A program made the translations under genes and the position numbers. Below the pieces are notes generated by a model. The model did no database searches and was not told where the DNA came from. It saw nothing but the letters and a program-made list of their open reading frames with translations. Below, piece by piece: positions 1 to 41,200 of a stretch of 64,000 nt of DNA. This DNA comes from a virus: positions 1 to 64,000 of IMG/VR virus record IMGVR_UViG_3300025168_000071, one strand, 5' to 3'. Positions within the stretch are counted from its first letter, which is position 1. Each line of letters starts with the position of its first letter.

Positions 1-931
1 GAATTTGGTCTTGTAGCTGCTGCAGGAGTTCTATAGATTTTTGATCTCCCATAATTAAACCATTTAATGCGTTCATAGCTTGAAGGGGAGGATTGCTTAG
101 GGTTGTCTGGGTTACGGTGGTAGTCGCAATATCGGGGACGTTATCGGCAGCTTGGCCGGCCACATCGGCTAATTTTCTGGCCTCTTCTTTCTGCAGAAGC
201 TCAACACCGTATTTGATAGTTTCTCTTGTTGACCTTTCTATATAGCTGCCAACGCCCACCTCTACATCCTGTGGGTTATTTGCCATCTCTAATATTTCTT
301 GTGAAACTCTTTCTAATCCTTCAACACCTTCAGATAGTTTTGCTATTTGGCGTAACTCCTCTTCATTCGCGACAATCTTAGAAACAATTTCTCCATCTGC
401 ATCGAAAGTAGTACCATCCACGGCACACCCTTCTTGTAGATTTTTTGTCTTTTTAGACTCGTTAAGACAACTCGAAAATATGTGGCTGAGTGCATACAGG
501 ACTATTAAAGCCACTATAACCTTTATGGCAATCGTACCAATTCTGTATATAGTGGGGTGCTTCTCCTCAAAGCGCGCCAAGAAGCCTTTAATTTTGTTAA
601 TAATTCCTGCTAGCTTCGAAGCATATTTAATAACCTTATCTTTGATTCTGTCTATGAACATAAACGCCTGAGTAGACAGATATAAAACAGGGTTACTAGC
701 CATATCGGCTAATGCCGCTTCATCTAATTGCTCGATATGGTAATCGACTGAACGTTCCCAGTTTTCAAGGAATGTTTCTATTGCATTCTCATTCTCGTTT
801 AAAAGATGGAGCGCATCATAGAAAGAGGTTTGGCGGACTGTGTCATCCTCAAAAAGATATAAGTATCCGTAGTCCTTAGCTTTTTCGCTTTCAGTCAAGT
901 ACTGGCGCCAATTTTCCATTAAGAGCTTCAT
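1..931 (-). CDS. Tagged membrane-anchored protein, 3' end outside window
   Basis: The reading frame runs off the left edge, so only the first ~310 residues are seen. It begins MKLLMENWRQYLTES, the N-terminal tag shared with several enzymes to its right. One hydrophobic segment (about residues 130-150, IAIKVIVALIVLYALSHIF) is followed by a Glu-rich, probably helical region. No enzymatic motif is visible. Its ATG lies 2 nt after the stop of the upstream acidic gene. The tag suggests an internal head protein, but a membrane segment in such a protein is unusual and might act after DNA entry. Function unknown. Confidence 0.75.
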   Translation of the reverse strand, partial: MKLLMENWRQYLTESEKAKDYGYLYLFEDDTVRQTSFYDALHLLNENENAIETFLENWERSVDYHIEQLDEAALADMASNPVLYLSTQAFMFIDRIKDKVIKYASKLAGIINKIKGFLARFEEKHPTIYRIGTIAIKVIVALIVLYALSHIFSSCLNESKKTKNLQEGCAVDGTTFDADGEIVSKIVANEEELRQIAKLSEGVEGLERVSQEILEMANNPQDVEVGVGSYIERSTRETIKYGVELLQKEEARKLADVAGQAADNVPDIATTTVTQTTLSNPPLQAMNALNGLIMGDQKSIELLQQLQDQI

Positions 932-933
932 GA

Positions 934-1749
934 TTAAAGCCCCAGTGCAATCTCGTCTGCGGTCGGTCGCGAGAGGTCTTCCATCATTGCCTCTTCCCCA
1001 CCACCGGCGTCGTTTTTCGCCATATCATATGCTTGATTGGTGGGCTCTTCTACAGAGCCAGAAAGCTCAGTTTCAAACTTATCAAAATACAGCTTTGTGT
1101 TGGCAATTAGGTAATCATAGAATAGCTCTTGATCTTCGGGGTTTGAGAGCAGTTCGAATGAATCGATAATATTGCTCTCGATCTTTTTGAATGTGGAATA
1201 AGCAATATTCCGGCCAGTCTCATCGGCACCCTCAATTCCGAAGTTATCGCGAGGATCTTCGGGTTCTGTATCAGCAGAAATTTCTGAATCAGTGCGGATA
1301 TCAATAAATTTGTCGTCATCGGAGGGCCCGGTTACATCATCGGTGATCTCAATGTCAATTTCTTCTTCTAATGCCTCATCAGCTGCAGCCTCGTTATCAC
1401 CCGCCTTGGTATTGGCTTCGACAGGTGTGAGGGTATCAATAATAGCCTGCACAATGTGAGCGCGGAATGACTTTCGTTGTTCTGGGTCAGTCGTCATCGA
1501 CTTAAAATCATCTTCCAAAACTGGCACAATCTTCTTAAGAAGCTCCTCAAGCACGTTAATACCCGTAGATTTGTTAGGCGTAGGATCCACATCTGCAGTC
1601 TGGCGCTCTTCAAGCGTCTTCATTTCTTCGTCCATAAATGCACAAATAATTCCACGTAACTCCTGCTCTTCATTCAGTTTTTTTGTCTTGACATAGCGGA
1701 TCAAAGATCGTATACTAGATCTAAGGTTCTGCTCTTCTTTATGATTCAT
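934..1749 (-). CDS. Acidic protein, prohead-core-like
   Basis: A 271-aa protein with a basic N-terminus followed by a long Asp/Glu-rich middle (about residues 120-175) and a helical C-terminal part. KKLNE occurs at about residues 28-32 and fits the (L/I)xE cleavage consensus of T4-type prohead proteases. The start overlaps the end of the ligase-like/nucleotidyltransferase gene by 4 nt. Composition and neighbours suggest a core or scaffold protein, but no family is recognised. Confidence 0.7.
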   Translation of the reverse strand: MNHKEEQNLRSSIRSLIRYVKTKKLNEEQELRGIICAFMDEEMKTLEERQTADVDPTPNKSTGINVLEELLKKIVPVLEDDFKSMTTDPEQRKSFRAHIVQAIIDTLTPVEANTKAGDNEAAADEALEEEIDIEITDDVTGPSDDDKFIDIRTDSEISADTEPEDPRDNFGIEGADETGRNIAYSTFKKIESNIIDSFELLSNPEDQELFYDYLIANTKLYFDKFETELSGSVEEPTNQAYDMAKNDAGGGEEAMMEDLSRPTADEIALGL

Positions 1750-3818
1750 GTTTTAATTCCTCTTTCAATAAGTAGTTTATATACATCCATAACTAAACTC
1801 ATATCAATATTTTCGTTTTTCTTTTTAGTGTCTCGCTTACCCGGAGTAAATCCCAAGGTACGCATAACTAAAGGGTCATCTTTCTTTTTGCCCCCTTTAC
1901 CTTGCTCGTCTTCACCAGAGTGGCCGGCTACTGCGCCGGTCGAGGCCATAGATACCTCTTCAAGGGGCTCATTAAGGCCCGTGTCGATGCCTAGGATGGA
2001 CAGAAAATCATATACGTCCCCTTCACCACCTATGAAATCTTCAAGCAGCTCTACGGCTTCCACGTCCTCTGTAGCCTTTCCTAAAAGATATCGCATATCA
2101 GAAGCATGGAAGTCGCGTGGCTCCTTCTTGGGATCTTTTACGCTAGGCATCTCTGCTGCCAAAGGGGATTGCTCTAAAAGTGCCATATATTCTGGCCCGT
2201 GTTGGGCTGCTGCACAAGCGATACTGCGAGGGTCTAACAGCTCTACCCCATCTTTAACATACTTTTCGGCTTCATTCCACCGTTTCCAATCGTCACATTT
2301 TTCGCTTGAGCCCAATGTAAGCACATCACCCGGCTGCAATGGCCCTCCGTCACCCATAAAATCATATGCAGCTGTCAATGGTGAAGCTGCAGCAGATATT
2401 TCAATAGTAACGGGACCACCCGGCGCGAGTAGATGGCCTGCTAACGATTCCCACATTTCCTTTGCATGTGCAGCTGTGACGACAGTTCCATCCTCTAAAG
2501 TTCTGCTGGTGTTGAGTGGATTAGAAATGAGAACCTTAACTACTTCGTTATTTGCTGCATATTCTTCAACCATAGCAAGATGTCCCCTGTGAGGTGGCTT
2601 AAAAGCCCCCGGAACAAGGGCAACCTTTTTTCCAGCAGCGGCGGCTGGGTTGACATCCGCGACGGAACTGTCAACAATGTTTAATTCAATAGCACTATCT
2701 TCGTCATCTTCTTGCTCATTAACTTGCCCAAATCCTCCTCCCATATTACCAACAATGAATTCCCCGGTAATTTTAACAGGATTAGGCCCGAACATCTTAT
2801 CGTGACGTAGAACAACACCCTCATGCCCCATTACGTCACCCATAGGGCTTGTTAGGCCCTTTAAAATTTCATTTCCGAGTACTCGGGTGGCATGCATGAA
2901 GATAGCGCCGTAAATAGCAGCCTCGGCATCTGTATCTTCTATCAAATCTATAATTGGAACAGTTTGATTGAGAATATTCATATAAAGCTGTTTGTGAAGA
3001 GGATGTGTTCGTTTTCCGTCTTTTAGCTTAATAGTTTTGTAACGAGGGTTAGAAGCCTCTTGAAGCCACTCACCCAAGCTCTTAGTAATCTCTCGATCAT
3101 CCGAAATACGAACGGTAAACGGCTGTGCTAACGCATTATCAAAATCAATGTCTATATCTACCAATCTTTCTGTTGGAACCGAAGAATAAACTTTAAATCC
3201 GTATTGTTCGGCAAAAGGTTGCATTTTTTTGACCAAAGAGTCCATAATTGAGGCTTCATAAGGTATTTCAACACTAGCAGCTTTAACGCCCTCCGGCCTT
3301 TGCATACCGGGCCTTTCCTTGCCCTTAGCAGCACCCGATTTACCAATTTTATGATAAAACTGATTTAAACCGTGAATTGCAAGGAAGTTTTCGTCATATT
3401 GAGTAACATTTGTGGTTCCTGCGACATATTCGGTATTTAGAAAGCGAGAAGGGTCTTCCCACATTCCTAATTGCTCTAATTCCGGTCTAATCTCTTCAAT
3501 GGCGCTGTTTAAAATACCCAAAAGCGCTTTAATCGCCGGCCGCATGCCGTGGCCTTCGGGAAAGCGGTCATCCACTCTCCTCATCGTGATTCCTTCGATA
3601 TCAATTGGTTTTAAAGAGCCTCTATCGACTGCAAACTGCTTTACATCGTCATCGCCAACAACTTTAAACGAAACATTAACGCCGTCAATCTTGACAGCAC
3701 CAGCACCTTTCTTTTCTACGTAAGTTTTGGCTCGATCAAAGAAATCTAAAAGATCGGAACCCCCGTTGACCCACGGAAGGTCAAAGGGGTGAGCCATATG
3801 TCCTGCGGCGCCGCCCAT
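1746..3818 (-). CDS. Ligase-like domain fused to HxGH nucleotidyltransferase
   Basis: A 690-aa two-domain protein. The N-terminal part carries a KIDG motif (K43-D45-G46) resembling the adenylated lysine motif I of RNA/DNA ligases and capping enzymes. A TEYV element near residue 130 and EGVVLR near residue 335 resemble motifs III and IV, and VKITGEF follows as a possible motif V. From about residue 400 there is a cytidylyltransferase/NMNAT-like domain: PGAFKPPHRGHL with the HxGH-type signature, and ASDMRYL near residue 573 in the place of the second signature (ISxxxxR). The C-terminus ends in a short helix. I infer two nucleotidyl-transfer activities in one chain, perhaps nucleic acid or NAD related; the substrates are unknown. 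The gene abuts a small coiled-coil gene upstream. Confidence 0.7.
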   Translation of the reverse strand: MGGAAGHMAHPFDLPWVNGGSDLLDFFDRAKTYVEKKGAGAVKIDGVNVSFKVVGDDDVKQFAVDRGSLKPIDIEGITMRRVDDRFPEGHGMRPAIKALLGILNSAIEEIRPELEQLGMWEDPSRFLNTEYVAGTTNVTQYDENFLAIHGLNQFYHKIGKSGAAKGKERPGMQRPEGVKAASVEIPYEASIMDSLVKKMQPFAEQYGFKVYSSVPTERLVDIDIDFDNALAQPFTVRISDDREITKSLGEWLQEASNPRYKTIKLKDGKRTHPLHKQLYMNILNQTVPIIDLIEDTDAEAAIYGAIFMHATRVLGNEILKGLTSPMGDVMGHEGVVLRHDKMFGPNPVKITGEFIVGNMGGGFGQVNEQEDDEDSAIELNIVDSSVADVNPAAAAGKKVALVPGAFKPPHRGHLAMVEEYAANNEVVKVLISNPLNTSRTLEDGTVVTAAHAKEMWESLAGHLLAPGGPVTIEISAAASPLTAAYDFMGDGGPLQPGDVLTLGSSEKCDDWKRWNEAEKYVKDGVELLDPRSIACAAAQHGPEYMALLEQSPLAAEMPSVKDPKKEPRDFHASDMRYLLGKATEDVEAVELLEDFIGGEGDVYDFLSILGIDTGLNEPLEEVSMASTGAVAGHSGEDEQGKGGKKKDDPLVMRTLGFTPGKRDTKKKNENIDMSLVMDVYKLLIERGIKT

Positions 3819-4079
3819 TTACTTTTCCTCGCTTTCATTTAAAGCTTCTTCAAGAATATTAAGCTTCTCTTCTAGCAAATCGACTCTGTTTTGCATCCGC
3901 CGAGCATACTTGCGTACTTCTTTAAGATTTTGCTCAGCCATGCTCAGCCGGCGCTTTTCAGCCAAAGTTTTTGGTTTAAAGTGTTTTACAATCTCTTGAA
4001 GAGACTGAATATACATAAAAATGTCTCTTTCAATATTTTCATTGATCAAATATTGCTGCCAATCCTGTTCTAAGGACAT
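3819..4079 (-). CDS. Small coiled-coil protein with tag-like N-terminus
   Basis: 86 aa, mostly charged heptad-like helix (about residues 20-80). The N-terminus reads SLEQDWQQYLINEN, a divergent form of the ENWRxYLNE tag, with a predicted (L/I)NE cleavage site. Its stop is adjacent to the start of the ligase-like gene. It is probably a head-core or assembly protein. The assignment rests on the tag and composition only. Confidence 0.65.
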   Translation of the reverse strand: MSLEQDWQQYLINENIERDIFMYIQSLQEIVKHFKPKTLAEKRRLSMAEQNLKEVRKYARRMQNRVDLLEEKLNILEEALNESEEK

Positions 4080-7062: not shown

Positions 7063-7650
7063 TTAATTTGCGTGATCTATATTTTCGTCGATATCTTCAG
7101 CATACTTAACTCTTCTTGCACGTATTTTGATGTCAGGGAAGACGTCTCTTAGTTCTTCCACTGCCTCTACGTTCTTACCGGAGTCATCAAAGAATAACAC
7201 GTCTGTTGCGCCGGCCCTAATTCTGTCATGAATCCAAGACGATTTGGCATGAGGATCTGAATCACCTAAAAGCTCAAATGTGATCATAGATGTATCGAGC
7301 CCAATGCTCTCAAGATAATCTCGAATTGAGGCCTCTGCTTCCGGAGCCCGAGCCGTTAAGATAGCTATTTCTCGACCTTCTGTTCCTGCGTTAAGGGCGT
7401 TACGGATAATATTAGTTATCTGCTTAATCTCTCTTGGGTTGATAACTTCATCGAACTCAGAGAAGTCATATTCATAATCTGGATTGATTTTGTGAGTTGC
7501 ATATTCGCCGGGAGTCATTTCGATTCTTTGTCCGGTATCAGTTGTAATATATATATTAGAATCGGACTTTGCGATTGTATCATCAAAATCAAAAACACGA
7601 AGCTTTGATTCATTCAAATACTGACGCCAATTTTCAAGTAGGAGTTTCAT
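7063..7650 (-). CDS. Tagged HAD-superfamily phosphatase
   Basis: 195 aa. Residues 1-14 are the tag MKLLLENWRQYLNE. Immediately after comes HAD motif I (VFDFDDTI), then motif II in LTAR, a Lys in AKSSW as motif III, and motif IV in FFDDSGKN. The set is complete for a phosphohydrolase or polynucleotide 3'-phosphatase-like enzyme acting on a small phosphorylated substrate. Placing the catalytic Asp a few residues after LNE suggests the tag is removed or tolerated. It is one of four consecutive tagged genes. Confidence 0.85.
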   Translation of the reverse strand: MKLLLENWRQYLNESKLRVFDFDDTIAKSDSNIYITTDTGQRIEMTPGEYATHKINPDYEYDFSEFDEVINPREIKQITNIIRNALNAGTEGREIAILTARAPEAEASIRDYLESIGLDTSMITFELLGDSDPHAKSSWIHDRIRAGATDVLFFDDSGKNVEAVEELRDVFPDIKIRARRVKYAEDIDENIDHAN

Positions 7651-7651
7651 A

Positions 7652-8713
7652 TTAGCTAAATAGTCCGAGATCAGTGATTACGAAATCCTTTGTCCCGGGC
7701 CGAACCATCACATTTCCAGAGTGAACATCTTTTGGTTGCCACTTTTGATCATCATGGAAATATCTCATCGCATTCATGAGTTGCCGCGCTTCCGGAAACA
7801 GTTTTTCTATGCTCTTTGGTGAGCGGCCAGCTAATGAAACTTCACCATGGCCTTGATGTATAGGAACTATTTGTTTTTCGAGAACTCTTTCAATAGAACT
7901 TATAAGTGACTCTTTAAATACTGCCGGGAGTGAGTCATACCACCCCGGGTCTTGTTTTAAATAGGGTAGCGATTCCTCAACGATTAAATCAACTATCACA
8001 CTCGGAGCAACCCAGTTGATCGCCGGCCCAGCGCCCTCATCGCTATAGCTAATGATTTCTTCATCATTATCAATAATCCTCTTTATAACTTTATTCGGGA
8101 CCTCCATAAGGATTTTCTTCATAACATCACGGGATCCTTGACTCAATATGAGGTTCCCATATAGAACGGTTGTAATAACATCATATGCGGCCTCGGGGTC
8201 TTTAAATATTGTGGCATACTTTTCGTGCCTTGACAAGTCGTTGTCTTTATCATTTAATCTGAATAGATCAGTTTTCACTCTTTCTGGGATGTCTTGGAGG
8301 ACTTCCATAAAGATATAGTAGTCTTTGTCACCTACAACCACATCATAAACATCAGGTAGATACTTGGCATATTTTTCAGGCATCGAAGCTTTATTTTCCA
8401 TCGCAAAACGATAGTTTCTAGCTTCCTGATCAGCACTGGCCGGCCCACCCCATAGGCGCCCGGTCACAACCTTTAGCGCATTACGCTCACCAGTTTCTCT
8501 GTTCTCGACCAAAAACACTTCGCCCATTTGGCCCTTGCCAAGTTTCTTAATATAGTGGAAACCGAGTTTATCAGCGGTCTTCTTGACTCTCGTTAAGAAC
8601 TCCTCTTCTTCTTGGCGAGGTCCGCCAGCCATGGTGGCAGTGTCGGTGTTGTTAATACCAAGCGAAATTTCTTCGTTTACAAACTTTCGCCAATTTTCAA
8701 GTAGGAGTTTCAT
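7652..8713 (-). CDS. Tagged protein-kinase-like protein ending at the DFG position
   Basis: 353 aa beginning MKLLLENWRKFVNEE. The Gly-rich loop is GKGQMGEVF (G59-G64), the VAIK-type lysine is K81 (NALKVV), the catalytic loop is KDVHSGN (D329, N334) and the metal-binding Asp is D348 in DLG. The chain ends five residues after DLG, so the activation segment and C-lobe helices after it are absent. Instead there is a long helical insert (about 150-300) before the catalytic loop. It may be an atypical or small-molecule kinase rather than a Ser/Thr kinase. Its start overlaps the exonuclease end by 4 nt. Confidence 0.75.
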   Translation of the reverse strand: MKLLLENWRKFVNEEISLGINNTDTATMAGGPRQEEEEFLTRVKKTADKLGFHYIKKLGKGQMGEVFLVENRETGERNALKVVTGRLWGGPASADQEARNYRFAMENKASMPEKYAKYLPDVYDVVVGDKDYYIFMEVLQDIPERVKTDLFRLNDKDNDLSRHEKYATIFKDPEAAYDVITTVLYGNLILSQGSRDVMKKILMEVPNKVIKRIIDNDEEIISYSDEGAGPAINWVAPSVIVDLIVEESLPYLKQDPGWYDSLPAVFKESLISSIERVLEKQIVPIHQGHGEVSLAGRSPKSIEKLFPEARQLMNAMRYFHDDQKWQPKDVHSGNVMVRPGTKDFVITDLGLFS

Positions 8714-9600
8714 TTATCACTCCTATGATATCCGCGCTTCTTCTTGCGAAGACCCCACGCGGTTCTACCTTGATATTTAGAGATGTCTACATCTGAGGAT
8801 GCCTGCAGAGCCATGAAGATCACCTTTGTCATCTCCATCATCATCTTAACATCAGCTAAAGCATTGTGCCACTCGTCTGTACTAATCTCATAAGCTTTAG
8901 AAACTGGGCCCATCGAAGCAGTCACATAATCACCGAACTTCCCGGTCATTGTAAGCGCTTGTAGAATGGTTTGCGCTCTCTCATCTCCGCTATCGGCTAA
9001 TGTTTTGATTAATGAGTTATGCCATAATTTGATTAACATCATTGTATCAAAAATTGGGTATTCTCGCATATTAACCGGTATATTATATAAATCAGCCCTT
9101 TTTTGTATGAAGTTAACATCAAACTCGGCATTTTGTGCGACTAACACTGGATTTGGTTGGCTTTCAAGATATGAAACAAACTGTCTGAGAACGTCTTCTT
9201 CACCGGGCATCCCCTTTGGATACTTCTCTTTATACTCATCGCTTGGCATGCCATAGCGGGTCAACTCTAAAGGGAACTTTGCTTTTGGGTCTTCTGATGC
9301 TTCGAACCCGGCCAAAGTCTCAGAATTCAACTTGATCTTATCATAAAATATTCCTCGTTTGGCTTCAACGTTATTAAACCGCCAATTGTCGGGCAGCGCT
9401 GATATCGCGCCGATTTCTGTTAGCTGATCAGTCGCCGGCTTAAATCCTGTGGTCTCCGTGTCAAAGAAAATCCAAGTATGATCCCCGAAAACCTTTAGCT
9501 TATCGAACAATTGTTCAATTGAAGAATCAAAAAAATCTTCGTCTAAGATATAAGATTCAGTAAGAAGGTATCCTCGCCAATTTTCAAGTAGGAGCTTCAT
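8710..9600 (-). CDS. Tagged DnaQ-like 3'-5' exonuclease
   Basis: 296 aa starting MKLLLENWRGYLLTES. ExoI is FFDTETTGF (D47, E49), ExoII is AQNAEFDVNFI and ExoIII is WHNALADVKMM with the His-x4-Asp spacing of DEDDh enzymes. The C-terminus is basic (GLRKKKRGYHRSDK), suitable for DNA contact. A proofreading-type exonuclease with a head-targeting-like tag suggests either a packaged nuclease that acts on host DNA or a replication helper. It is coupled to the kinase-like gene. Confidence 0.85.
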   Translation of the reverse strand: MKLLLENWRGYLLTESYILDEDFFDSSIEQLFDKLKVFGDHTWIFFDTETTGFKPATDQLTEIGAISALPDNWRFNNVEAKRGIFYDKIKLNSETLAGFEASEDPKAKFPLELTRYGMPSDEYKEKYPKGMPGEEDVLRQFVSYLESQPNPVLVAQNAEFDVNFIQKRADLYNIPVNMREYPIFDTMMLIKLWHNSLIKTLADSGDERAQTILQALTMTGKFGDYVTASMGPVSKAYEISTDEWHNALADVKMMMEMTKVIFMALQASSDVDISKYQGRTAWGLRKKKRGYHRSDK

Positions 9601-9602
9601 CG

Positions 9603-10220
9603 TTATGAACCTTGTTTAAGTGCTTGCTCAATATCAGCCAGAAGTTGTTTGAATGGTGGATTTATTTTATCATCTTTCGCGCCCATCAAACCTTCTACAG
9701 CCCACTGTGGCTTAAGTGCTTTTAAGCTGTTTAGCCAAGCATTTGTTAAATATGCAAAATAAGTTAACTGATTAGGTAGCTGAGCAGTTCGACCGGCTAC
9801 TTGGTAGTCTTGAAGACTCGGAAAACCTTTCGAGGATACCCAAGACCAAATATCTGTTTCTGGAAACGGCTTCTTGTCGTATGCTTTTCCCAATCTAACA
9901 CCAATGTCGTGCATAATATGTCCCTCTGGTGGTACTTTTCCTGATTTTTCAAATTTAGCAAGATGCAAGTTGTCTTTATAATACCCATAACCGCCCGCGG
10001 GCAGCCACATGTTTTCGGTACCTAACTGTGGGGTTCCTGTACCAGTGCTCCGATAAAAGGCAGTTGGTCCATGACCCGGCACATCTATTACAACCATAAG
10101 ACGGCCCTGATTGCTGTCGATTTGCGGTGTGCGAACAGCTTGAGGTAACGATTTGAAACTTTGAAGATCAAAATTACCTTCATTCAAGTATCCTCGCCAA
10201 TTTTCAATTAGGAGTTTCAT
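9603..10220 (-). CDS. Tagged protein of unknown function
   Basis: 205 aa beginning MKLLIENWRGYLNEG. The body has a GHGPTAFYRSTGTGTPQ region and a helical C-terminus. HIMHDIGVRLGKAYD may be a functional motif, but I do not recognise the family. It follows the fibre-like gene and precedes the exonuclease by 2 nt. Confidence 0.75.
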   Translation of the reverse strand: MKLLIENWRGYLNEGNFDLQSFKSLPQAVRTPQIDSNQGRLMVVIDVPGHGPTAFYRSTGTGTPQLGTENMWLPAGGYGYYKDNLHLAKFEKSGKVPPEGHIMHDIGVRLGKAYDKKPFPETDIWSWVSSKGFPSLQDYQVAGRTAQLPNQLTYFAYLTNAWLNSLKALKPQWAVEGLMGAKDDKINPPFKQLLADIEQALKQGS

Positions 10221-10232
10221 TTACTTTTTCCT

Positions 10233-11588
10233 TTATGCCGAAGAACTGTGTGACGAGAGAACGAGCCATACATCATTATCAGCAGAAACAGTCCATGATT
10301 GTCCGAGAGTTCCAGTGAGTGAGCGCACCCCATCAATAGTTTGACTCCCCGAAGCATCAATGACCATAAGATTGCTATTGGCATTTTTAATGGTATACAC
10401 AATGCCATTGACCGTAGTCGCGTCGGGTAAAGAAGCAGTAAGAACTTGTGTTGTATTCATATAAATAATGCTATCAGAAGTTCCTAAAGTATAGTTTGCC
10501 CCTTTCGTACTAAAATTCCTATACCATGAACCGCTGGCAATAAGAGAAGTGTTGGCTTTAATTGTTCCAGCAGCCACAATATCTGCAGAAGAAGATAAAC
10601 TTACAGAAGCTGTTAAGGTACCTCTCCCGCCATCTAACGTCAAATAAGTAGTGTTGGCGCCACCGGGCTTAGCCTGCAGCAACAAATCACCACCTGTCGC
10701 ATCTTGAGTTACTATTAAGTTTCCACCAGACCCAAGCTTAAGATATGATTTAGCAGTGCCGTTGGTCGCAAATCTTAAATAAGCATCAGCACCTGCCCCA
10801 GCATCGATTGTTGCTTCCGTCACTCCCGCGCCGTTAACATGTAAGTCATAGAGCGGCGCCACAGTACCAATGCCAAAATTTCCATTTCCCTTTACAACAA
10901 ACGCCGGGTTCGCCATATTGCTTTTAGCTGCGAGAAGAATCCCATCGTCTGAACCACTTACATTAAGGGTGCCAGTAAGGTACTCACCCCCAGCTGTGAT
11001 CTTGCCAGAGCCAGATATATTTCCCGCCACAATTAAGGTAGTTCCAACAAAAGTAAGGTTACTTTCGGCGGAAGCCTGAGAACCTCCATCAGAAGTTATA
11101 ATTCGATTGCTGCCTGCATTTGAAAGAGTCGTAATAGACGGTGCAGCACCATTCCCTGCTGTTGTGAGTCTCCCCTGCGCATCTACAGTTAAACTAGAAT
11201 ATGTATATGAACCTGCGCTGACACTGGTAGCGTCCAGCGAGACCGTAACTGTGCGACCGGATTCGGCGGTTGAAATTGGCGCAGTGCCGGCAATTGTAGC
11301 TGTTTGGCCATTGGTGATTGCAGTTGTGCCGGTGTCACCTGCAATGGTCCAGTTAGACATAGTGCCACCAGAACCAGTGATTCCTTGGAGCGCTGCCCCA
11401 TCCCCTGAAAATGCAGATGCGGTTAAAGCGACTGCGCTTGTTATTGATGTATTAGTAACTGTGAGCCTAGCCGATCCACTAGTTGCCAAAGTAATTGAGT
11501 CGGAACCAAAGTCAATCTGGGTATCCGGATCATCTTCGTTCTTAATATCTCCTAAGCCCCGCGGACCTTTTGAAGTGTTATATGCCAT
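10233..11588 (-). CDS. Fibre- or spike-like repetitive structural protein
   Basis: 451 aa rich in Gly, Ser, Thr and Ala, with repeated beta-strand segments (LTVDAQGRLTTAGNGA, GNFGIGTVAPLYDLHV, LYLTLDGG-like). The N-terminus MAYNTSKGPRGLGDIKNED and the GIGT...LHV element are typical of trimeric fibre or tail-appendage proteins of marine phages. It lacks the tag found on its neighbours, as expected for an exposed structural protein. Exact location on the virion unknown. Confidence 0.7.
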   Translation of the reverse strand: MAYNTSKGPRGLGDIKNEDDPDTQIDFGSDSITLATSGSARLTVTNTSITSAVALTASAFSGDGAALQGITGSGGTMSNWTIAGDTGTTAITNGQTATIAGTAPISTAESGRTVTVSLDATSVSAGSYTYSSLTVDAQGRLTTAGNGAAPSITTLSNAGSNRIITSDGGSQASAESNLTFVGTTLIVAGNISGSGKITAGGEYLTGTLNVSGSDDGILLAAKSNMANPAFVVKGNGNFGIGTVAPLYDLHVNGAGVTEATIDAGAGADAYLRFATNGTAKSYLKLGSGGNLIVTQDATGGDLLLQAKPGGANTTYLTLDGGRGTLTASVSLSSSADIVAAGTIKANTSLIASGSWYRNFSTKGANYTLGTSDSIIYMNTTQVLTASLPDATTVNGIVYTIKNANSNLMVIDASGSQTIDGVRSLTGTLGQSWTVSADNDVWLVLSSHSSSA

Positions 11589-11614
11589 TTGTTAAGTTCT
11601 CCTTAGAATAATTA

Positions 11615-12208
11615 TTACGCCACTGATTTACTGCCGCGGCATTTCCACTTTTTACGTGATAATGCGTTAGCGCAAGGTGGGTTCTTACATTTTTTAATCT
11701 TTGCTGACCGCGCGCAATACGCGTCACCTTTTTTTGTACCGGGCCGGATGCGATCACCGCCATCTTTAGCTTTCCCTGCTTGCCCAAATGAACGACATTT
11801 GCCATCTACACGCTTTGCAGAACGCTTCCCTTTAGAGGGTTTACATGGTTTCTTTTTTTCGTCCAAAACTGCTTCAATTTCTTCATCGATAATAGTATCA
11901 AGATCTTGCTCTTCTTCTATGGGGACACATTTGTCCTTGCCGTCCTCTGTTCCGGCGTACTTGTATCCATCCCAACAGGCTTTTCCGTCGGCGCCTTGTT
12001 CTTTTCCAGCTTTATTCTTCTTTTCTTCAAGCTCTTCTTTTAATTTATCGTCATCGGTCTCGTCAAGCATCTGCTGAATACGTTTAGCCTGACCGGCATG
12101 CATTTCAGAGGCTTTCTCAAGCTCTCCAACAATGGTTTTAAGTTCTTCTTCGTGTTCTTTCGTGTGTGATTCGGCAAATAAGCGCCAATTTTCAAGTATC
12201 AGTTTCAT
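11615..12208 (-). CDS. Tagged Cys/Lys-rich protein
   Basis: 197 aa. The tag is MKLILENWRLFAES. A helical Glu/Lys-rich region (to about 80) is followed by a Cys-containing basic C-terminal half with repeated CKPSKGKRSAKR and DAYCARSAKIKKCKNPPC-type elements. The C-terminal pattern (Gly-Lys-Arg-Ser, PGTKKGD, ALSRKKWKCRG) recurs in marine phage proteins, and I infer nucleic-acid binding, possibly DNA condensation in the head. Confidence 0.7.
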   Translation of the reverse strand: MKLILENWRLFAESHTKEHEEELKTIVGELEKASEMHAGQAKRIQQMLDETDDDKLKEELEEKKNKAGKEQGADGKACWDGYKYAGTEDGKDKCVPIEEEQDLDTIIDEEIEAVLDEKKKPCKPSKGKRSAKRVDGKCRSFGQAGKAKDGGDRIRPGTKKGDAYCARSAKIKKCKNPPCANALSRKKWKCRGSKSVA

Positions 12209-12309
12209 TTGTATTCCTCGGCGTAACCTTCCAGCAACAATTGCTGATTAATATTGTATTCGCCTATAAATAGTGTGCCTATACATCTTCTGTATTCGTT
12301 GGCCGGCAT
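12205..12309 (-). CDS. 34-aa ORF resembling the end of a staphylococcal-nuclease-like protein
   Basis: The short frame reads RRCIGTLFIGEYNINQQLLL then EGYAEEYK, matching the final strand-helix of SNase-fold proteins (G-x-x-y-v-x-g-x-x-vNq-x-L-v-x-eGyA). Upstream catalytic parts are missing. Its TGA overlaps the ATG of the tagged Cys-rich gene (ATGA), so it may now serve mainly for translational coupling. It is either a remnant or a functional micro-protein. Confidence 0.45.
   Translation of the reverse strand: MPANEYRRCIGTLFIGEYNINQQLLLEGYAEEYK
12264..12274 (-). promoter_or_regulatory. ACTATTTATAG motif, candidate late promoter element
   Basis: On the minus strand this reads ACTATTTATAG and lies 56 nt before the tagged Cys-rich gene. 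Similar elements precede the 1293-aa gene, the acidic core-like gene and a gene at 20.3 kb. The complement resembles the T4 late -10 (TATAAATA). It lies inside the 34-aa ORF, so coding constraint is an alternative explanation. Confidence 0.3.
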
Positions 12310-12311
12310 GA

Positions 12312-15239
12312 TTACTCGTTTTTCCTTGAAATATATATAATTGGAAGCGCTATATTTGTCAGGCACTTCTGTGCTGCCACGAAGCGATTGGCGCCACCTA
12401 CAACTAATTCTTTCACACCTGTCTGATCAATTATCACAGGTTTGTTAATTCCTTCATCACAAAGCTTTTTCCATATATCTTCTTGAACATCACCCTTATT
12501 TGGTCCTGACTCTACTTGTGATACATAACTGTCAATCTCTTCCTTGTGACTTTCCATACTAATGGTATCATTTTTAGTCACTACATCTTTTAGATTAATA
12601 TTATTATCCGCCAGCCACTTGTCTAAATCTGCATCTGCTGTTTCTTCTATCTCATTAAGGCGCCGCAACAGTCTGTCAATTTTTAATGTGCTTAGTTCTT
12701 CTCGGAGGTCTCCCACCGGAGTACCCGTCATATTAACTTTCTTTTGAAATATATCACGAAAAACCTCGCTAGCCACTCGGTCAATCTCGTCTTGGTCGTC
12801 CCAGATATTTACTAATTCTTTGAGAACATTAACCTGTTCGTCAGGGTCCTCCCCATATATTGAGAAATACAAATTAAGTTCTTGGCTTTCGCCTTCTGTC
12901 CCATCCTCACCAAACAAATCCATATCTAGCGGCATTTGTGGGTACATAGCACCACCAGTGGCCTCAAATGCCGGCGCTGCCATCCGCCGGCGAATTTCAA
13001 GCCAGAAAATGCGATCATTCATAATCTGCATAGCTTGTTCTTCAGATGCTCCTAAATCCTTGTACCAGACCTCTGGGTGGGCAGTAAATTGTACAAACTC
13101 GAACTCGTCAGGCTCATTACTTTCTTCAGCTTCAGATTCCCAGTGATAAAGGCCCATTTCATCATACATCACCTCACGACCTAATACCATCGCGGCCCCA
13201 CCAGCCATGTAGCCTTCTCGTTGAAAAAATTTAGTCAACGCTTGTTCAACGGCGCCATCCATGTCGTCAACTTCCTCATCAACTGCAATACAAAACTCTT
13301 CATAGTTATCCGGCGCATACGCATATTCTTGCCCGTCAAATCCTACTAGTTTTTCTGGGTTGACTGTGATCGGGAGCTTCCACCGATTGGACATTTTCTC
13401 GAATATATATGGGTAGTCGCTATCGGGCCAGTTTATTCCCCATGACCCTTCTAATTCTTGCAAACCATGGCTAATCATCTCTACACCGGGCATTTTTGTA
13501 AAATCATCGGCGTTCCAGTATATATAAAGTTTAGCTTCACAAGTAATATAAACGCCGCCCCCTCCATCGTCAACTGCAGTGCCTGTGACGTCGGTAGATC
13601 TAAATTTGTTATTGTATCTATCCGAAATATTGTCACACTCAGTTTGATATTGTTGGATAAGGCCTCCAAGTAAAAGTTCATTATCTAAATCATCCTCTGT
13701 TTCACTGTTCTGCTGTACGTGCCCTTCCGTTCCCTCGATCTGATTGCCAAATAAATCTACCAGTTGGAAGCTCAAGGGAGTATCATATTGTGTACCTCCG
13801 AATTGAACAAAATGGCTTAAGTTGAGTATAGAACCATCGCCTACCATGGGCGCCTTTTCCATCTGCTCTTTTTGGTTTTTTCTCAGCCAATCAATCATGC
13901 GGTCTTGAAAACCGGGAATCTGAGCGCCATATACACGCCTTTCTACGGAGGCTACTTGAGTACCCTCATCCCAGCGCACCGGCGTACGAGTGTCATAATA
14001 ACGAAATTTGCGAACTCTTAACCGGGAAACTGGTGTGAGGTATCCCGAATCTGCGTTTCTTTCATCATCATGAAATATCTCGCCTTTTTGAATTTCTTGC
14101 TCTGCACTGTCTATATTACTTGTATTGGTGTCATGAAGTAAATCTTCTGTCTTCACCACGTATGCGAGGGCTCCATGTCCATGAGCCTCCGCAACGGCAC
14201 ACTTATAATATTCTCCTCCTCCTCCTCTAGAAGGGGGAGAATGACAAGAACTAATATGTTCAAAGTCTGACATGCGCCAAACATCAATAGGGTCTCGTGT
14301 AATAATAATTGAATATTGATCAGATTCCACTGAATCAATGTTCTCTTTAATATATTTCGCGTTCTTGAGCCAGTATTTTCCCCAATCTACAAAACGCGTT
14401 TCTGGGACTATAATCGGTTGTCGGGTTCTTGGTTTTTTATTGTGTTCTATGTCGGCTTTATCTTGTTGTTCTCGGCGCGCGCGCTCTTGCTCTTTCCACG
14501 CATATTTCTCTTTATCACTCAAAAAGTAATTACGAAATTCGCCTAGAAGAGAACGGCCGGTGAGAAGAGACAGCTGGTTTTGAAGTTGCTCATATCTTTG
14601 GTTCTCCTTTTCGGTAAGATGTTCTTCCATCTCACCAATAGTCACCCGTGCAGTTCGCATGTCAATATTCGCTAAGCGAGCTGCGCTGAGTGGATTCGCA
14701 TGTCCTGCGTGGACCTTTTTGGCCACTTCGACTTTTAAATCTGAAAGTTGGTTTATTAAGTCATCAACTTTGGTCAAATATTTGCCGATTTTCATTTGAA
14801 GTTTCTTTTTTATTTTTTTTGAGGTCCCGAACCCAACGCGCCCGGGAGGTCCCATAAACTGTGCTATCCGCTCGGTTGCCCCTATGTGGTCCTCCCACTC
14901 TCTTTCGACCGATATCATACCTTTATTCCAATCAGCCTCTAAACCAAAATCATTTTGTAATAAATTGACAAATTTACCAAGTTCAGAATTCTGATCGAGA
15001 GAAGGAAAATCAATAACAATGCGCGACCTATCGCCAAAAATCTCTTGAAAAGCTAAATCATCGTACGATAGCTCATCTATAGCTTTCTCGATGTGGTCGA
15101 ATTCATCATAGGTCACTTCTCGAAGAAGGTTTTGTTTGTTTTCGAGTTTTATTCGAATTCTTGTGTCTTTGAAAGGGACATTTTCTGCCCGTGAGTTTTC
15201 ATTTAAGAAATTTCGCCAAGAATTATTCATTTTTTTCAT
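12312..15239 (-). CDS. Giant tagged SCHS-motif protein, paralogue of the 1293-aa protein
   Basis: 975 aa beginning MKKMNNSWRNFLNEN, a variant tag. About residues 310-370 hold IIITRDPIDVWRMSDF then ISSCHS, YYKCAVAEAHGHGALAYVVK and, further on, SRLRVRKFRYYD and ERRVYGAQIPGFQ. The same series occurs in the protein at 45.6-49.5 kb. Acidic low-complexity stretches follow. The last 60 residues (INKPVIIDQTGVKELVVGGA then NRFVAAQKC) look like a degenerate ParB-type domain. The conserved Cys-His and CA/E/G residues suggest an enzyme, but I know no function. A Nudix gene and a secreted protease gene lie just upstream. Confidence 0.75.
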   Translation of the reverse strand: MKKMNNSWRNFLNENSRAENVPFKDTRIRIKLENKQNLLREVTYDEFDHIEKAIDELSYDDLAFQEIFGDRSRIVIDFPSLDQNSELGKFVNLLQNDFGLEADWNKGMISVEREWEDHIGATERIAQFMGPPGRVGFGTSKKIKKKLQMKIGKYLTKVDDLINQLSDLKVEVAKKVHAGHANPLSAARLANIDMRTARVTIGEMEEHLTEKENQRYEQLQNQLSLLTGRSLLGEFRNYFLSDKEKYAWKEQERARREQQDKADIEHNKKPRTRQPIIVPETRFVDWGKYWLKNAKYIKENIDSVESDQYSIIITRDPIDVWRMSDFEHISSCHSPPSRGGGGEYYKCAVAEAHGHGALAYVVKTEDLLHDTNTSNIDSAEQEIQKGEIFHDDERNADSGYLTPVSRLRVRKFRYYDTRTPVRWDEGTQVASVERRVYGAQIPGFQDRMIDWLRKNQKEQMEKAPMVGDGSILNLSHFVQFGGTQYDTPLSFQLVDLFGNQIEGTEGHVQQNSETEDDLDNELLLGGLIQQYQTECDNISDRYNNKFRSTDVTGTAVDDGGGGVYITCEAKLYIYWNADDFTKMPGVEMISHGLQELEGSWGINWPDSDYPYIFEKMSNRWKLPITVNPEKLVGFDGQEYAYAPDNYEEFCIAVDEEVDDMDGAVEQALTKFFQREGYMAGGAAMVLGREVMYDEMGLYHWESEAEESNEPDEFEFVQFTAHPEVWYKDLGASEEQAMQIMNDRIFWLEIRRRMAAPAFEATGGAMYPQMPLDMDLFGEDGTEGESQELNLYFSIYGEDPDEQVNVLKELVNIWDDQDEIDRVASEVFRDIFQKKVNMTGTPVGDLREELSTLKIDRLLRRLNEIEETADADLDKWLADNNINLKDVVTKNDTISMESHKEEIDSYVSQVESGPNKGDVQEDIWKKLCDEGINKPVIIDQTGVKELVVGGANRFVAAQKCLTNIALPIIYISRKNE

Positions 15240-15280
15240 AGTTTATCCATCCACAAGTGTGATCCAATCACAAAAAGCAC

Positions 15281-15745
15281 CTAACTAAGTTTTTCCAATG
15301 CTCTGTCCAATAAATAGGCTGGAAATGTTCTTAGTTCGAGAGATTTATCGTCTTTTACGTCTTCAATGGAGACCCACTTTGAATCACTGTGCTCAATAGC
15401 CCCTGTTTTAGGGTTTTCTCGGAACCTTATTGTACCAGACCACTCTGTGGTTGTATAAAAATACTTATCTGCATCACCAGTGGTAACTTTAGCAACATAA
15501 ATGAGATCTTTTTTAGATGATGTCAGTCCGGTTTCCTCTTCTAATTCTCTAAGAGCCCCGTCTTCAATCGATTTGTCCTCATCATCAACGTGCCCACCCG
15601 GCAGATCCCAGTGTCCCTGCTTAGTATCTTCATCTTTGGAGCGCTTAATAACTAAAACTTTGTCTTTTTTATCAACACAAATAACACAAGCGATAATTTT
15701 GCGCTTTTTTTTGACTTCATTTAGAAAATTGTGCCATTTTTTCAT
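15281..15745 (-). CDS. Tagged Nudix hydrolase
   Basis: 154 aa from the ATG 4 nt after the protease stop; this start gives the tag-like MKKWHNFLNEV, while an upstream in-frame ATG would overlap the protease gene. The Nudix box is present as GGHVDDEDKSIEDGALREL then EEETGLT (G-x-REL-EE-x-G), slightly lengthened after the first Gly. Family members hydrolyse nucleoside diphosphate derivatives (mutagenic dNTPs, ADP-ribose, NAD-type or capped RNA). The tag suggests it acts as an internal or injected protein. Confidence 0.85.
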   Translation of the reverse strand: MKKWHNFLNEVKKKRKIIACVICVDKKDKVLVIKRSKDEDTKQGHWDLPGGHVDDEDKSIEDGALRELEEETGLTSSKKDLIYVAKVTTGDADKYFYTTTEWSGTIRFRENPKTGAIEHSDSKWVSIEDVKDDKSLELRTFPAYLLDRALEKLS

Positions 15746-15749
15746 TATT

Positions 15750-16499
15750 TTACTGGCATGCTTTGGCTTTAATAACACCGGTGCGGCAAAGAGCTTCCAA
15801 AGAGTGATCTAAATTTAAGACTTGAATTGGTTGCACCCAAATTAAGTTACCAATAACTTGTAAATCTGGCCTGTGTTCTACATCGACGCCCCATAGAATA
15901 CCAACTATTTTGCCATCACTGTCGTAAACAACAGACCCGCTGCAGCCAAACCACCCATGAGTGTGAAGAAGTATCTGTACCCCCGCCCCATTAAGCACTT
16001 CATAACCCGCCACGCGCCCTCTGAAGGTCATCAATTGATGAGAAGAGGGAAAGCCAGAGTAAGTGATTTCCTGTCCAACAGAAGCTAGCTCAGTGCTCGG
16101 CGCGTATTTAAGAGGCTCAACATTTTCGAATTGCTCTACCATATATAGAATTGCTATATCATGTAGTGGATCACCGTGTACCAGAATCGATCTCCTTACT
16201 TCGGCGCCTCTCATTATCAAGTAGTCGGTTCCTAAAACACCATCAGCAACATGCTGTGCTGTCAATACTAAAGTGAGGCCTTTATATTTTATAAGCGATC
16301 CTGATCCATGGCCACCTCTGGAAGTGACAACTCTTACGGCAGCATCTCTCACCTTCTTTTCAGCACTCGTCATGCCAGCACTAATCGGAACTGGCTCAGT
16401 ATTGATTTTAGAATCAAATGTGTTAGCTACTTTGGCTTCAGCTGCCATCGCCGGCTGAATGCACATTAGTGCTGCAGCTAATAATAATAAATGTTTCAT
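15750..16499 (-). CDS. Secreted trypsin-like serine protease
   Basis: 249 aa with a signal peptide (residues 1-20, LLLLAAALMCIQPAMAAE). The catalytic triad is visible: H83 in LTAQHVAD, D114 in DPLHDIAIL and S187 in GWFGCSGSV. The GCSGS serine motif differs from the common GDSGG. The enzyme should act outside the cytoplasm. It sits upstream of the Nudix and giant SCHS-motif genes. A second, distant protease of this type lies beside the other giant protein. Confidence 0.85.
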   Translation of the reverse strand: MKHLLLLAAALMCIQPAMAAEAKVANTFDSKINTEPVPISAGMTSAEKKVRDAAVRVVTSRGGHGSGSLIKYKGLTLVLTAQHVADGVLGTDYLIMRGAEVRRSILVHGDPLHDIAILYMVEQFENVEPLKYAPSTELASVGQEITYSGFPSSHQLMTFRGRVAGYEVLNGAGVQILLHTHGWFGCSGSVVYDSDGKIVGILWGVDVEHRPDLQVIGNLIWVQPIQVLNLDHSLEALCRTGVIKAKACQ

Positions 16500-39295: not shown

Positions 39296-39372
39296 TGGTG
39301 GACCCTGTGGGACTTGAACCCACGACCGACCGGTTATGAGCCGGATGCTCTGACCAACTGAGCTAAGGGTCC
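39296..39372 (-). tRNA. tRNA with CAU anticodon (Met, or Ile2)
   Basis: Cloverleaf with acceptor GGACCCT/AGGGTCC, loop CTCATAA and encoded CCA. The overall sequence resembles both elongator tRNA-Met and the tRNA-Ile2 whose C34 is modified to lysidine; I cannot decide between them. The top anticodon-stem pair is T-T. Confidence 0.9.
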
Positions 39373-39376
39373 GTTT

Positions 39377-39808
39377 TTAATCTCTCTTTCTCACGTGTCG
39401 CTGTGGAACCCGGTTTACTGGAAACGTATCTGGTTCGTACTTCTTCACACTGAAACTCTTTGTGGGAATGTGTTTGTATGAGTCGAGCCGATAAAAGAAG
39501 CACTCCCCTTCTTTGTTTACCCCAACAAGCCAATCGATCCCGTGCGCTGCATAGTCTGTGGAGTTGCGGACTTTGCCTGTTTTGCTGACAACTTCGCCGG
39601 AGCGATCTATCACTTTAGATATGCTATTGCCGCTCATTGTCTTAACTTGAACCGTGGCGAATATTCCCTCACCGTGGTCCACAACCAAATCATAGATGCT
39701 ATCCCGGCTGACGGGCTGAAGTACAATCCAGCCTCGTTCCGTAATCTCCAGCATGGCCAAGATTTGGCTGCGGTTGCCACTCTGATCTGATGTGTCGCGA
39801 TAGCTCAC
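39377..39808 (-). CDS. PD-(D/E)XK endonuclease, intron/Holliday-type
   Basis: 143 aa. GNRSQILAMLEITERGWIVL then SRDSIYDLVVD and FATVQVKT give the order Glu/Gln helix, YDLV Asp, and V-Q-V-K of the PD-(D/E)XK group that includes group I intron-associated and archaeal Holliday-type nucleases. It lies between two tRNA genes, its stop 4 nt from one. It may be a free-standing homing nuclease. No intron is seen. Confidence 0.7.
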   Translation of the reverse strand: MSYRDTSDQSGNRSQILAMLEITERGWIVLQPVSRDSIYDLVVDHGEGIFATVQVKTMSGNSISKVIDRSGEVVSKTGKVRNSTDYAAHGIDWLVGVNKEGECFFYRLDSYKHIPTKSFSVKKYEPDTFPVNRVPQRHVRKRD

Positions 39809-39966
39809 TGCTTTTCTAACTCTTTTGACACAGTCTCGTATTGAGCAAGCGCCGCCTTTTCAAGTTGATTGCGCGCTTGTCTAATCTTGGCAGGATTCTC
39901 TGCAATCCAGTCCAGCGCAAAAAATGCCAACACGGCAATAACAGTATAACGTAAAATAGTTTCCAT
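39805..39966 (-). CDS. 53-aa membrane/coiled-coil protein
   Basis: METILRYTVIAVLAFFALDW followed by a charged helix (KIRQARNQLEKAALAQYETV). The longer frame would run through tRNA-Ile and is rejected. Function unknown. Confidence 0.55.
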   Translation of the reverse strand: METILRYTVIAVLAFFALDWIAENPAKIRQARNQLEKAALAQYETVSKELEKQ

Positions 39967-39992
39967 GTCTCTCTTCTCCCTCTTATTAAAAA

Positions 39993-40068
39993 TGGTAGGC
40001 CGAGCGGGATTTGAACCCGCGACAAATGGCATATAAGGCCACTGCTCTTACCCCTGAGCTACCAGCCA
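39993..40068 (-). tRNA. tRNA-Ile(UAU)
   Basis: 76 nt with encoded CCA. Anticodon loop CTTATAT gives anticodon TAT, reading AUA directly. Position 1/72 is a T-T mismatch; the other acceptor pairs hold. Bacteria normally read AUA with a lysidine tRNA, so this is unusual. Confidence 0.85.
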
Positions 40069-40076
40069 TCATTGGT

Positions 40077-40148
40077 TTATGATGTAGCCAAGGCGAACAA
40101 CATAATGCCGGCTATGATTGCTAAAAAGCCAAATCCTATAAATGTCAC
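40077..40148 (-). CDS. 23-aa membrane micro-peptide
   Basis: GTG start 6 nt after AGGAG: VTFIGFGFLAIIAGIMLFAL ATS, almost entirely hydrophobic. Located between tRNA-Ile and tRNA-Arg. Confidence 0.5.
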   Translation of the reverse strand: MTFIGFGFLAIIAGIMLFALATS

Positions 40149-40169
40149 TTCTTTCTCCTGTTTGTGATG

Positions 40170-40235
<66 letters not shown>

Positions 40236-40245
<10 letters not shown>

Positions 40246-40466
40246 GTACTACTCTTAGTATCTAATATAGCACATTCCGAAGCGTCTGTCAACCCCTCGG
40301 CGTTAAAAAATACGCCGTGGTGTCCCGGCACTATTGCAAGAACACGGCATGTCTTTGAACGTGCCTTAATCTGATTCAAAGCCTCGGACTTGTCTGGGTT
40401 CGCGATCTCTTGCGAATAGTATGGTTGATTTGTCGTGTAATCCAACCAAATAACTGTATAACACAT
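40236..40466 (-). CDS. Hypothetical 76-aa protein
   Basis: CYTVIWLDYTTNQPYYSQEI then NPDKSEALNQIKARSKTCRV and LAIVPGHHGVFFN. Alpha/beta, unrecognised. Its 3' part contains the promoter for tRNA-Arg and its end overlaps the tRNA by 10 nt. Confidence 0.5.
40264..40292 (-). promoter_or_regulatory. Sigma-70-like promoter for tRNA genes
   Basis: TTGACA, 17 bp, TATATT on the minus strand, 19 nt before tRNA-Arg. It has the GTGCTATATTAG -10 context of the three-box promoters but no upstream box pair. Confidence 0.65.
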
Positions 40467-40486
40467 ATCTCTTTCTCCTCTTTTTA

Positions 40487-40672
40487 TCATGTTGGTTCAA
40501 TAAGCCACCACGGGCATGTCACTTTCTTGCCTTCGTGGTCATCCTTCTTTCTGGGGGTGCTGACCCACCCTTCGGGAGTCTCTATCACGCACTCATCCCC
40601 CTCGCATCTATCAATAACACATTCTGGCTCCTCTGGCATGTCAAAGGCCAGAATCGTAAGCAACCATATCAT
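40487..40672 (-). CDS. Small Cys-containing protein, possibly exported
   Basis: 61 aa: MIWLLTILAFDMPEEPECVI then DRCEGDECVIETPEGW. A short hydrophobic start and four Cys suggest export, but the signal is weak. Confidence 0.45.
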   Translation of the reverse strand: MIWLLTILAFDMPEEPECVIDRCEGDECVIETPEGWVSTPRKKDDHEGKKVTCPWWLIEPT

Positions 40673-40675
40673 CTC

Positions 40676-40894
40676 CTATCTCCTTCGTTTTGTAAATCTT
40701 GCTTTGCTGCGCTTTCCACGCTTTCGCTTGTTCTTTCTTTTACCACTCTTAAAAGTCGCGTTGGTACCTTTACTCTTTCCCTTCTTGAATACGCGGCGGG
40801 CTTTCCGTCGCAGCTTTTTAGGCTTACAAGAAGAGCAATCTCCTAACATAACGAGTGCGCCAAGTATGAGCGCGCCCTTTAGTAGATCCTCCAT
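40676..40894 (-). CDS. Lipoprotein-like protein with very basic tail
   Basis: 72 aa from MEDLLKGALILGALVMLGDC, a hydrophobic segment ending at a Cys (lipobox-like GDC). The remaining ~50 residues are dominated by Lys and Arg (KLRRKARRVFKKGKSKG, RKNKRKRGKRSK). Such a tail could contact DNA or acidic envelope polymers. Function unknown. Confidence 0.55.
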   Translation of the reverse strand: MEDLLKGALILGALVMLGDCSSCKPKKLRRKARRVFKKGKSKGTNATFKSGKRKNKRKRGKRSKARFTKRRR

Positions 40895-40929
40895 TTTACC
40901 TCCTATCATTTTGTTATCTCCCCCTAAAG

Positions 40930-41005
40930 TGGTGGGTCATCTGGGACTCGAACCCAGAACCTACGGATTAAAAGTCCGGTGCTCTACCAGTTGAGCTAAT
41001 GACCC
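40930..41005 (-). tRNA. tRNA-Lys(UUU)
   Basis: 76 nt, acceptor GGGTCAT/ATGACCC, loop CTTTTAA, CCA encoded. Confidence 0.95.
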
Positions 41006-41113
41006 ATTGTTCCTCCAGCGCCGATTCGCTCCGATTGCTATCGCAACCAGTCGGTGACGGCATGCACCACGAGGCGGGCATGCTAACGCCGCCGCTGAAC
41101 AAGGAACTGCAAA

Positions 41114-41200
41114 TGGTAGCTCCGATGGGATTCGAACCCATAAGCCCGATACGGGCGTCAGATTTTAAGTCTAATGTGTATACCATTCCACCACGGAGCC
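41114..41200 (-). tRNA. tRNA-Leu(UAA)
   Basis: 87 nt with a long variable arm, acceptor GGCTCCG/CGGAGCT with a G-T closing pair, loop CTTAAAA (anticodon TAA), CCA encoded. Directly follows a three-box promoter. Confidence 0.95.

Follow-up and report, generated by a model that had tools for sequence, protein, structure and literature searches.

The window analysed here is a 64,000-nucleotide stretch (positions 1 to 64,000) of a 68,795-base IMG/VR virus record, IMGVR_UViG_3300025168_000071. It encodes a protein that appears to join a ligase-like covalent nucleotidyltransferase to an HxGH adenylyltransferase in one chain (Table 1). A sequence-only reading had picked out KIDG, EGVVLR and PHRGH motifs on this chain, and all 3 are confirmed there, at residues 43-46, 333-338 and 409-413. 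The whole-protein AF2 model (mean pLDDT 84.5) has ordered blocks at about residues 5-358 and 397-610 with a disordered linker between them. Residues 617-670 have low pLDDT and are followed by a helix at 673-685. The protein begins Met-Gly-Gly-Ala-Ala-Gly-His-Met-Ala-His-Pro-Phe-Asp. Its matches in Pfam, PHROGs and NCBIfam are weak and confined to the HxGH part. Terminal tails were also seen at another locus, L012:5986-7835, where the ligase and the HxGH protein carry similar ones, NESLLRNYVKAILKS and LQESLLRAFIRTAID.

Table 1. Window features by position; residue numbers refer to the fusion protein
Positions	Strand	Feature	Basis or remark
2-1024		Frame with a ninth leader, MKLLMENWRQYLTE	At the window edge
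1746-3818	-	Ligase-like covalent nucleotidyltransferase plus HxGH adenylyltransferase, one chain	690 aa, ATG, intact ORF; AF2 model with two ordered domains; homologues L001-L011, L058, L084
1749-1811		C-terminal helix of the fusion	C-termini compared; similar ends in several window-clade relatives
1749-1988	-	Lys-rich disordered tail with short C-terminal helix IDMSLVMDVYKLLIERGIKT	AF2 pLDDT; C-termini compared
1989-2630	-	HxGH adenylyltransferase domain, residues 397-610	Pfam/NCBIfam matches below cut-off; fold matches to NMNAT, PPAT
2580-2594	-	PHRGH motif	Alignment
2745-3818	-	Ligase-like domain, residues 1-358	Alignment; N-half fold search (T4 Rnl1 first); no significant Pfam match
2766-2774	-	Motif V-like K349-I-T	Alignments of both branches
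2811-2822	-	Motif IV E333-G-V-V	Alignments of both branches
3423-3437	-	Motif III-like N128-T-E-Y-V	N128, E130 invariant
3615-3626	-	Motif Ia-like D65-R-G-S	Alignments of both branches; T4 RnlA equivalent KGS, by eye
3681-3692	-	Motif I K43-I-D-G	Predicted adenylylated lysine; invariant in both branches
3819-4079	-	Coiled-coil-like protein, 86 aa, leader MSLEQDWQQYLINE	Stop codon abuts the fusion ATG
7063-7650	-	HAD-like protein, leader MKLLLENWRQYLNE
7652-8713	-	Protein-kinase-like protein, leader MKLLLENWRKFVNE
8710-9600	-	RNase T-type exonuclease, leader MKLLLENWRGYLLTE
9603-10220	-	Protein with leader MKLLIENWRGYLNE	No assigned kind
11615-12208	-	Protein with leader MKLILENWRLFAE	No assigned kind
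12312-15239	-	975-aa protein with leader MKKMNNSWRNFLNE	No assigned kind
15281-15778	-	Nudix hydrolase, leader MKKWHNFLNE	PF00293, E 4e-21
15750-16499		Trypsin-2-type protease	Apparent signal peptide; adjoins the Nudix gene
39296-41200		Five tRNA genes (Met, Ile, Arg, Lys, Leu)
51822-53393		Phage-encoded GroEL-type chaperonin	PHROG E 8e-137
55161-55796, 62933-63538		Two head-maturation-protease-like genes	Related to ATP-dependent protease families
57542-58582		Dehydrogenase, start resembling IMP dehydrogenase	phrog_9582, E 2e-96

Two predicted nucleotidyltransferase domains

The covalent nucleotidyltransferase motifs I (KxDG), III (E130), IV (E333-G334) and V (K349) are all present in the N-terminal half, and in this order. 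K43, D45, G46, D65-R66-G67, N128, E130, N137 and Y141 are invariant in 44 homologues, and E333, G334, K349 and T351 are conserved in at least 90% of them. A second branch, about 25-30% identical, keeps the same catalytic columns; its alignment rows were picked by domain start and motif V, which leaves the interior motifs as the independent evidence. Judged from these alignments, the ligase motifs are not chance.

Modelled alone with AlphaFold, this half has a mean pLDDT of 90.5. In a Foldseek search of the PDB with the N-terminal half alone, ranks 1-17 are all RNA or DNA ligases, and the best match is weak (E 4.4e-3, probability 0.85). T4 RNA ligase 1 takes ranks 1-3 (2c5u, 5tt6, 9do4), followed by TbREL1 and other ligases. 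The first reading of this half as ligase-like is supported by motif conservation and, at weak significance, by the fold search, which did not give the refuting outcome of a half lacking any ligase fold.

Sequence libraries do not name this half. Pfam, PHROGs and NCBIfam give it no name and Pfam no significant match; RNA_ligase is a near-miss in 3 of the 44 members (best E 0.13). No match was found among PDB sequences with phmmer or profile searches. Its profile is not significant against single T4 RnlA, T4 DNA ligase or PseT sequences, and there is no significant sequence or profile match to the T4 Rnl1 family. We do not claim membership of that family, since the sequence-profile comparisons are negative, and because the comparison with T4 RnlA and T4 DNA ligase gave no significant match we use the term ligase-like. 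T4 RNA ligase 1 (RnlA) is still the best fold match, and by eye it shares the motif order KxDG, (K/R)GS, ExV...N, EG, K. The N-terminal half differs from it in having no significant sequence match, an invariant GHMxHPFD start of its own, a Thr in place of the second Lys of motif V, and an HxGH partner. We propose that it is a divergent RNA-ligase-type covalent nucleotidyltransferase with a predicted Lys43-AMP intermediate. This is part of the joint reading given below and shares its odds.

The C-terminal half matches Pfam CTP_transf_like (E 0.0028) and NCBIfam TIGR00125 (E 9.3e-5), both below cut-off. Structures of NMNAT and phosphopantetheine adenylyltransferase (PPAT) match its fold, which bears out the earlier call of an HxGH nucleotidyltransferase. 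The motifs are those of an NMNAT, with PHRGH followed by HASDMR, a variant of the (S/T)xxR type, in a Rossmann-like domain. The score of a curated NMNAT family is not reached, as every NCBIfam match is below cut-off. The HxGH domains of relatives likewise have weak NMNAT family matches in NCBIfam, far below the curated cut-offs. Taking the 2 halves together, both domain calls of the sequence-only reading are supported, and structure prediction gives two ordered domains; in profile searches the N-terminal matches are not significant and the C-terminal ones fall below cut-off.

With the full-length query the best structure is 2r5w (NMNAT/ADP-ribose pyrophosphatase). Like NadM-Nudix and NadR, the fusion has an HxGH adenylyltransferase joined to a second enzyme. 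Unlike them, its partner is ligase-like rather than a Nudix or kinase domain, and NadV is missing from 22 large records. It must be noted that the N-terminal HxGH type in L040, L056 and L060-L080 has GxHH (PFGRHH, PFGQHH) in place of HxGH and retains the downstream SGTxxR. The chemistry there may be changed or lost. Type C HxGH domains have GxHH as well, so some members of the family may lack the second activity.

Pairing across related phages

Related loci were collected from viral contigs, 80 in a first search and another 80 when a distant member served as query. Of about 170 related phage loci, nearly all pair the two domains. Among 84 near-branch loci, 77 have an HxGH domain in the same chain or close by: fused after the ligase in 28, fused before it in 22, and in a separate gene within 1.5 kb in 27. 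Among the 7 near-branch loci without it, the gene lies near a contig end in L033, L045, L057, L061, L062 and L071; L086 has its flanks and no HxGH match. HxGH-ligase fusions make up 70 of the 86 ORFs of the distant branch, and many of the remainder are truncated. Many of these loci are related, so the counts are not independent. As far as sequences can tell, a large family of phages has the pairing almost throughout.

A tree of 68 ligase domains requires at least 5 changes of arrangement, and the HxGH type, a rough label, changes about 11 times. We argue that such repeated re-joining of the two domains points to a shared function.

With the window protein as query, tblastn against annotated phages has no match. 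More distant members as queries find Microcystis phage Mel-JY01 and two uncultured huge phages, and BFVD has uncharacterised relatives, some titled 'Cytidyltransferase-like domain-containing protein'. The Mel-JY01 protein (L082) is WWT39297.1, 'Cytidylyltransferase like protein', in which the HxGH domain is followed by the ligase-like domain at the junction NNIIAE/GGLGGHMNHPFD. Unlike the window fusion it belongs to the distant branch, has the reversed domain order and is annotated for its HxGH half only. We found no description of a ligase-like plus HxGH pairing in the open-access papers searched. The pairing was unfamiliar to the sequence-only reading too, yet it is no one-off. The component parts are of known kinds; what is new is their pairing and its cargo context.

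Some members are larger. Very long ORFs at L055:1428-5660, L073:2941-6978 and L064:2593-7041 unite HxGH, ligase-like and other domains, those of L055 including superoxide dismutase, plastocyanin and GNAT. They are possibly polyproteins cleaved by a prohead protease. In L061, L065, L066, L116 and L141 there is an HNH-like insertion (about 255 aa in L065) directly after LLTEGGAA, and the GGAAGHM start then repeats. It resembles a homing element that has settled in the best-conserved site.

Leaders before the ligase domain

In the first locus set, 87 domain starts are preceded directly by [LIVMF]xE (64), Met (20, one of them internal, in L085) or LLC (3). The distant branch has [LIVMF]xE before the domain in 79 of 84 cases. 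Dissimilar upstream contexts end the same way. In a set reduced to 48 contexts that share less than 40% identity in the 20 residues ahead of the domain, [LIVMF]xE stands immediately before the ligase domain in 46; elsewhere in these stretches its frequency is 3.1%. By analogy this resembles the site of the T4 prohead protease, which cleaves after L/I-x-E (PMC9026906). The N-termini of relatives, such as MKTFKQYYNTILNE and MITFKQFLLE, can be set beside those of T4 ipII and ipIII, which begin MKTYQEFIAE, and ipI, which begins MKTFKEF. In T4 the targeting sequence has 10 residues, and the first ten of IPIII suffice for packaging (PMC9026906).

Of 1755 gene-like ORFs, 117 show the leader pattern, where shuffled sequences predict about 5, with patterns written after examples had been seen and some genes repeated through related loci. 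Its carriers include ligase-like proteins, separate HxGH genes and unrelated neighbours. Among 23 records, 16 encode a gp21-type prohead protease (PF03420), the close relative L003 being one of them; G000, a 68.8-kb fragment, has no match. Terminase and portal genes lie near some members. For most relatives these sequence signals suggest that virions carry the pair in their heads and deliver it into the host at infection. The family leader, of the MKTYQEFIAE type and ending [L/I]xE, is like that of T4 IPI, IPII, IPIII and Alt. Unlike those proteins the cargo would be an enzyme pair conserved across many phages. Polyvalent proteins, in the available text of Iyer et al. 2017 (PMC5512222), also unite several enzymatic domains in one predicted injected polypeptide and often have a metallopeptidase (compare L009, L011 and L073). 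The pairing of RNA-ligase-like and HxGH domains is not described in that text.

The window fusion itself has no leader ending L/I-x-E, and its Met-Gly start is common to its whole clade (twelve rows). Here, unlike in the T4 internal proteins, the leader is on the upstream gene, which we regard as a candidate packaging adaptor judging by its sequence. Comparable genes lie upstream of the fusion in L002, L003, L011, L030 and L058, though not in L007 or L008. A leader gene abutting the fusion in the window, with comparable genes in relatives, suggests that the leader may be provided in trans by this 86-residue protein. One can imagine a readthrough product merging the two genes. We rejected this, as the frames agree in the window and L002 and not in L001, L003, L011 or L058.

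A leader of the MKLLLENWR type is found on 8 of 39 listed window genes, against a mean of 0.014 in shuffles, and the remaining parts of these 8 proteins are mutually dissimilar. Seven form an island at 7063-15778, each with an N-terminal leader ending xE. These seven are probable virion cargo.

Proposed role and competing explanations

We propose a head-packaged, injected two-step adenylyl-transfer enzyme that acts early in infection on nucleic-acid ends or NAD-like cofactors, and put its probability at about one half. The domains, their motif conservation, the near-obligate pairing, and the leader and [LIVMF]xE signals are observed; packaging, cleavage, ejection, the adaptor role, the chemistry and the substrates we infer from them. 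Across the family, leaders resembling the capsid-targeting sequence of T4 would carry the pair into the prohead. The prohead protease would cut after [L/I]xE, leaving a ligase domain that begins Gly-Gly. The enzyme would be ejected with the phage DNA and be active in the first minutes of infection. In the window clade the ligase already starts Met-Gly-Gly, and the translationally coupled upstream gene, which bears a leader, may serve as an adaptor in trans. The ligase half might adenylylate or seal 5'-phosphate nucleic-acid ends broken by host defence, and the HxGH half might adenylylate those ends too, or else an NMN-like small phosphate substrate.

It is worth considering whether either half fits a standard pathway instead. 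One candidate is NAD+ restoration, where the HxGH half would adenylylate NMN to restore NAD+ in the face of host NADase defences, and the cofactor would be recycled or used by the ligase half. The C-half fold is closest to NMNAT/PPAT, relatives have the weak NMNAT matches noted above, and the island of leader-bearing genes includes a Nudix hydrolase. Nudix is found in 9 of 23 records, which decides little either way. Phages are known to rebuild NAD+ (PMC9503650, PMC12774641). However, reported NadM-containing phages always carry NadV (PMC9503650), unlike the records here: NadV/NAPRTase is absent from all 22 large records and from G000, so the standard phage NAD salvage route is disfavoured. 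There are no Macro domains in the large records searched, all NMNAT matches are far below curated cut-offs, and the ligase half is left without a clear role. We consider this scenario unlikely.

It is just as doubtful that the protein is an ordinary tRNA/RNA repair ligase, expressed in the cell and unpackaged, whose HxGH half serves to bind RNA or to provide a modification. In its favour, Rnl1 tops the fold matches, T4 RnlA is annotated as tRNA repair in restrictive prr hosts, the window has its tRNA genes, and the window copy has no leader. This does not account for leaders and [LIVMF]xE sites across the family, and it leaves the near-obligate HxGH partner unexplained. Only 3 of 23 records have a polynucleotide-kinase-type partner (PF13671) above the Pfam cut-off, and just 3 of 22 contain the classical RNA_ligase family. 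With NadV/NAPRTase absent and kinase partners this rare, neither the NAD nor the RNA-end pathway is complete by co-occurrence. These absences are soft evidence, since the records may be fragments.

The least probable scenario is that leader and [LIVMF]xE are unrelated to the head, being either a structural element of the fold or an N-terminal feature that serves expression generally in these phages. The leader's shortness and its absence from the window copy speak for this. Against it, a whole clade starting directly at Met-Gly means the fold does not need [LIVMF]xE, the same leader is on unrelated proteins, dissimilar upstream contexts share the same ending, and T4 internal proteins have a similar leader.

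Our preferred reading is an autonomous enzyme of early infection that carries out two adenylyl-transfer steps. A bolder claim, which we hold only tentatively and doubt somewhat, is that this is a widespread and previously undescribed class of injected phage enzyme, whose RNA-ligase-like and NMNAT-like domains would together make up a single pathway of two adenylyl-transfer steps, the enzyme being kept in the head until the prohead protease frees it. If true, a large group of environmental phages would have the same ligase and adenylyltransferase pair as virion cargo. Such sharing would strongly hint at one early-infection task in common, the repair of RNA or cofactors in the face of host defence, which none of the pathways found explains. 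The leader rule would also offer an easy way to spot further injected proteins from the sequences of uncultured T4-like phages.
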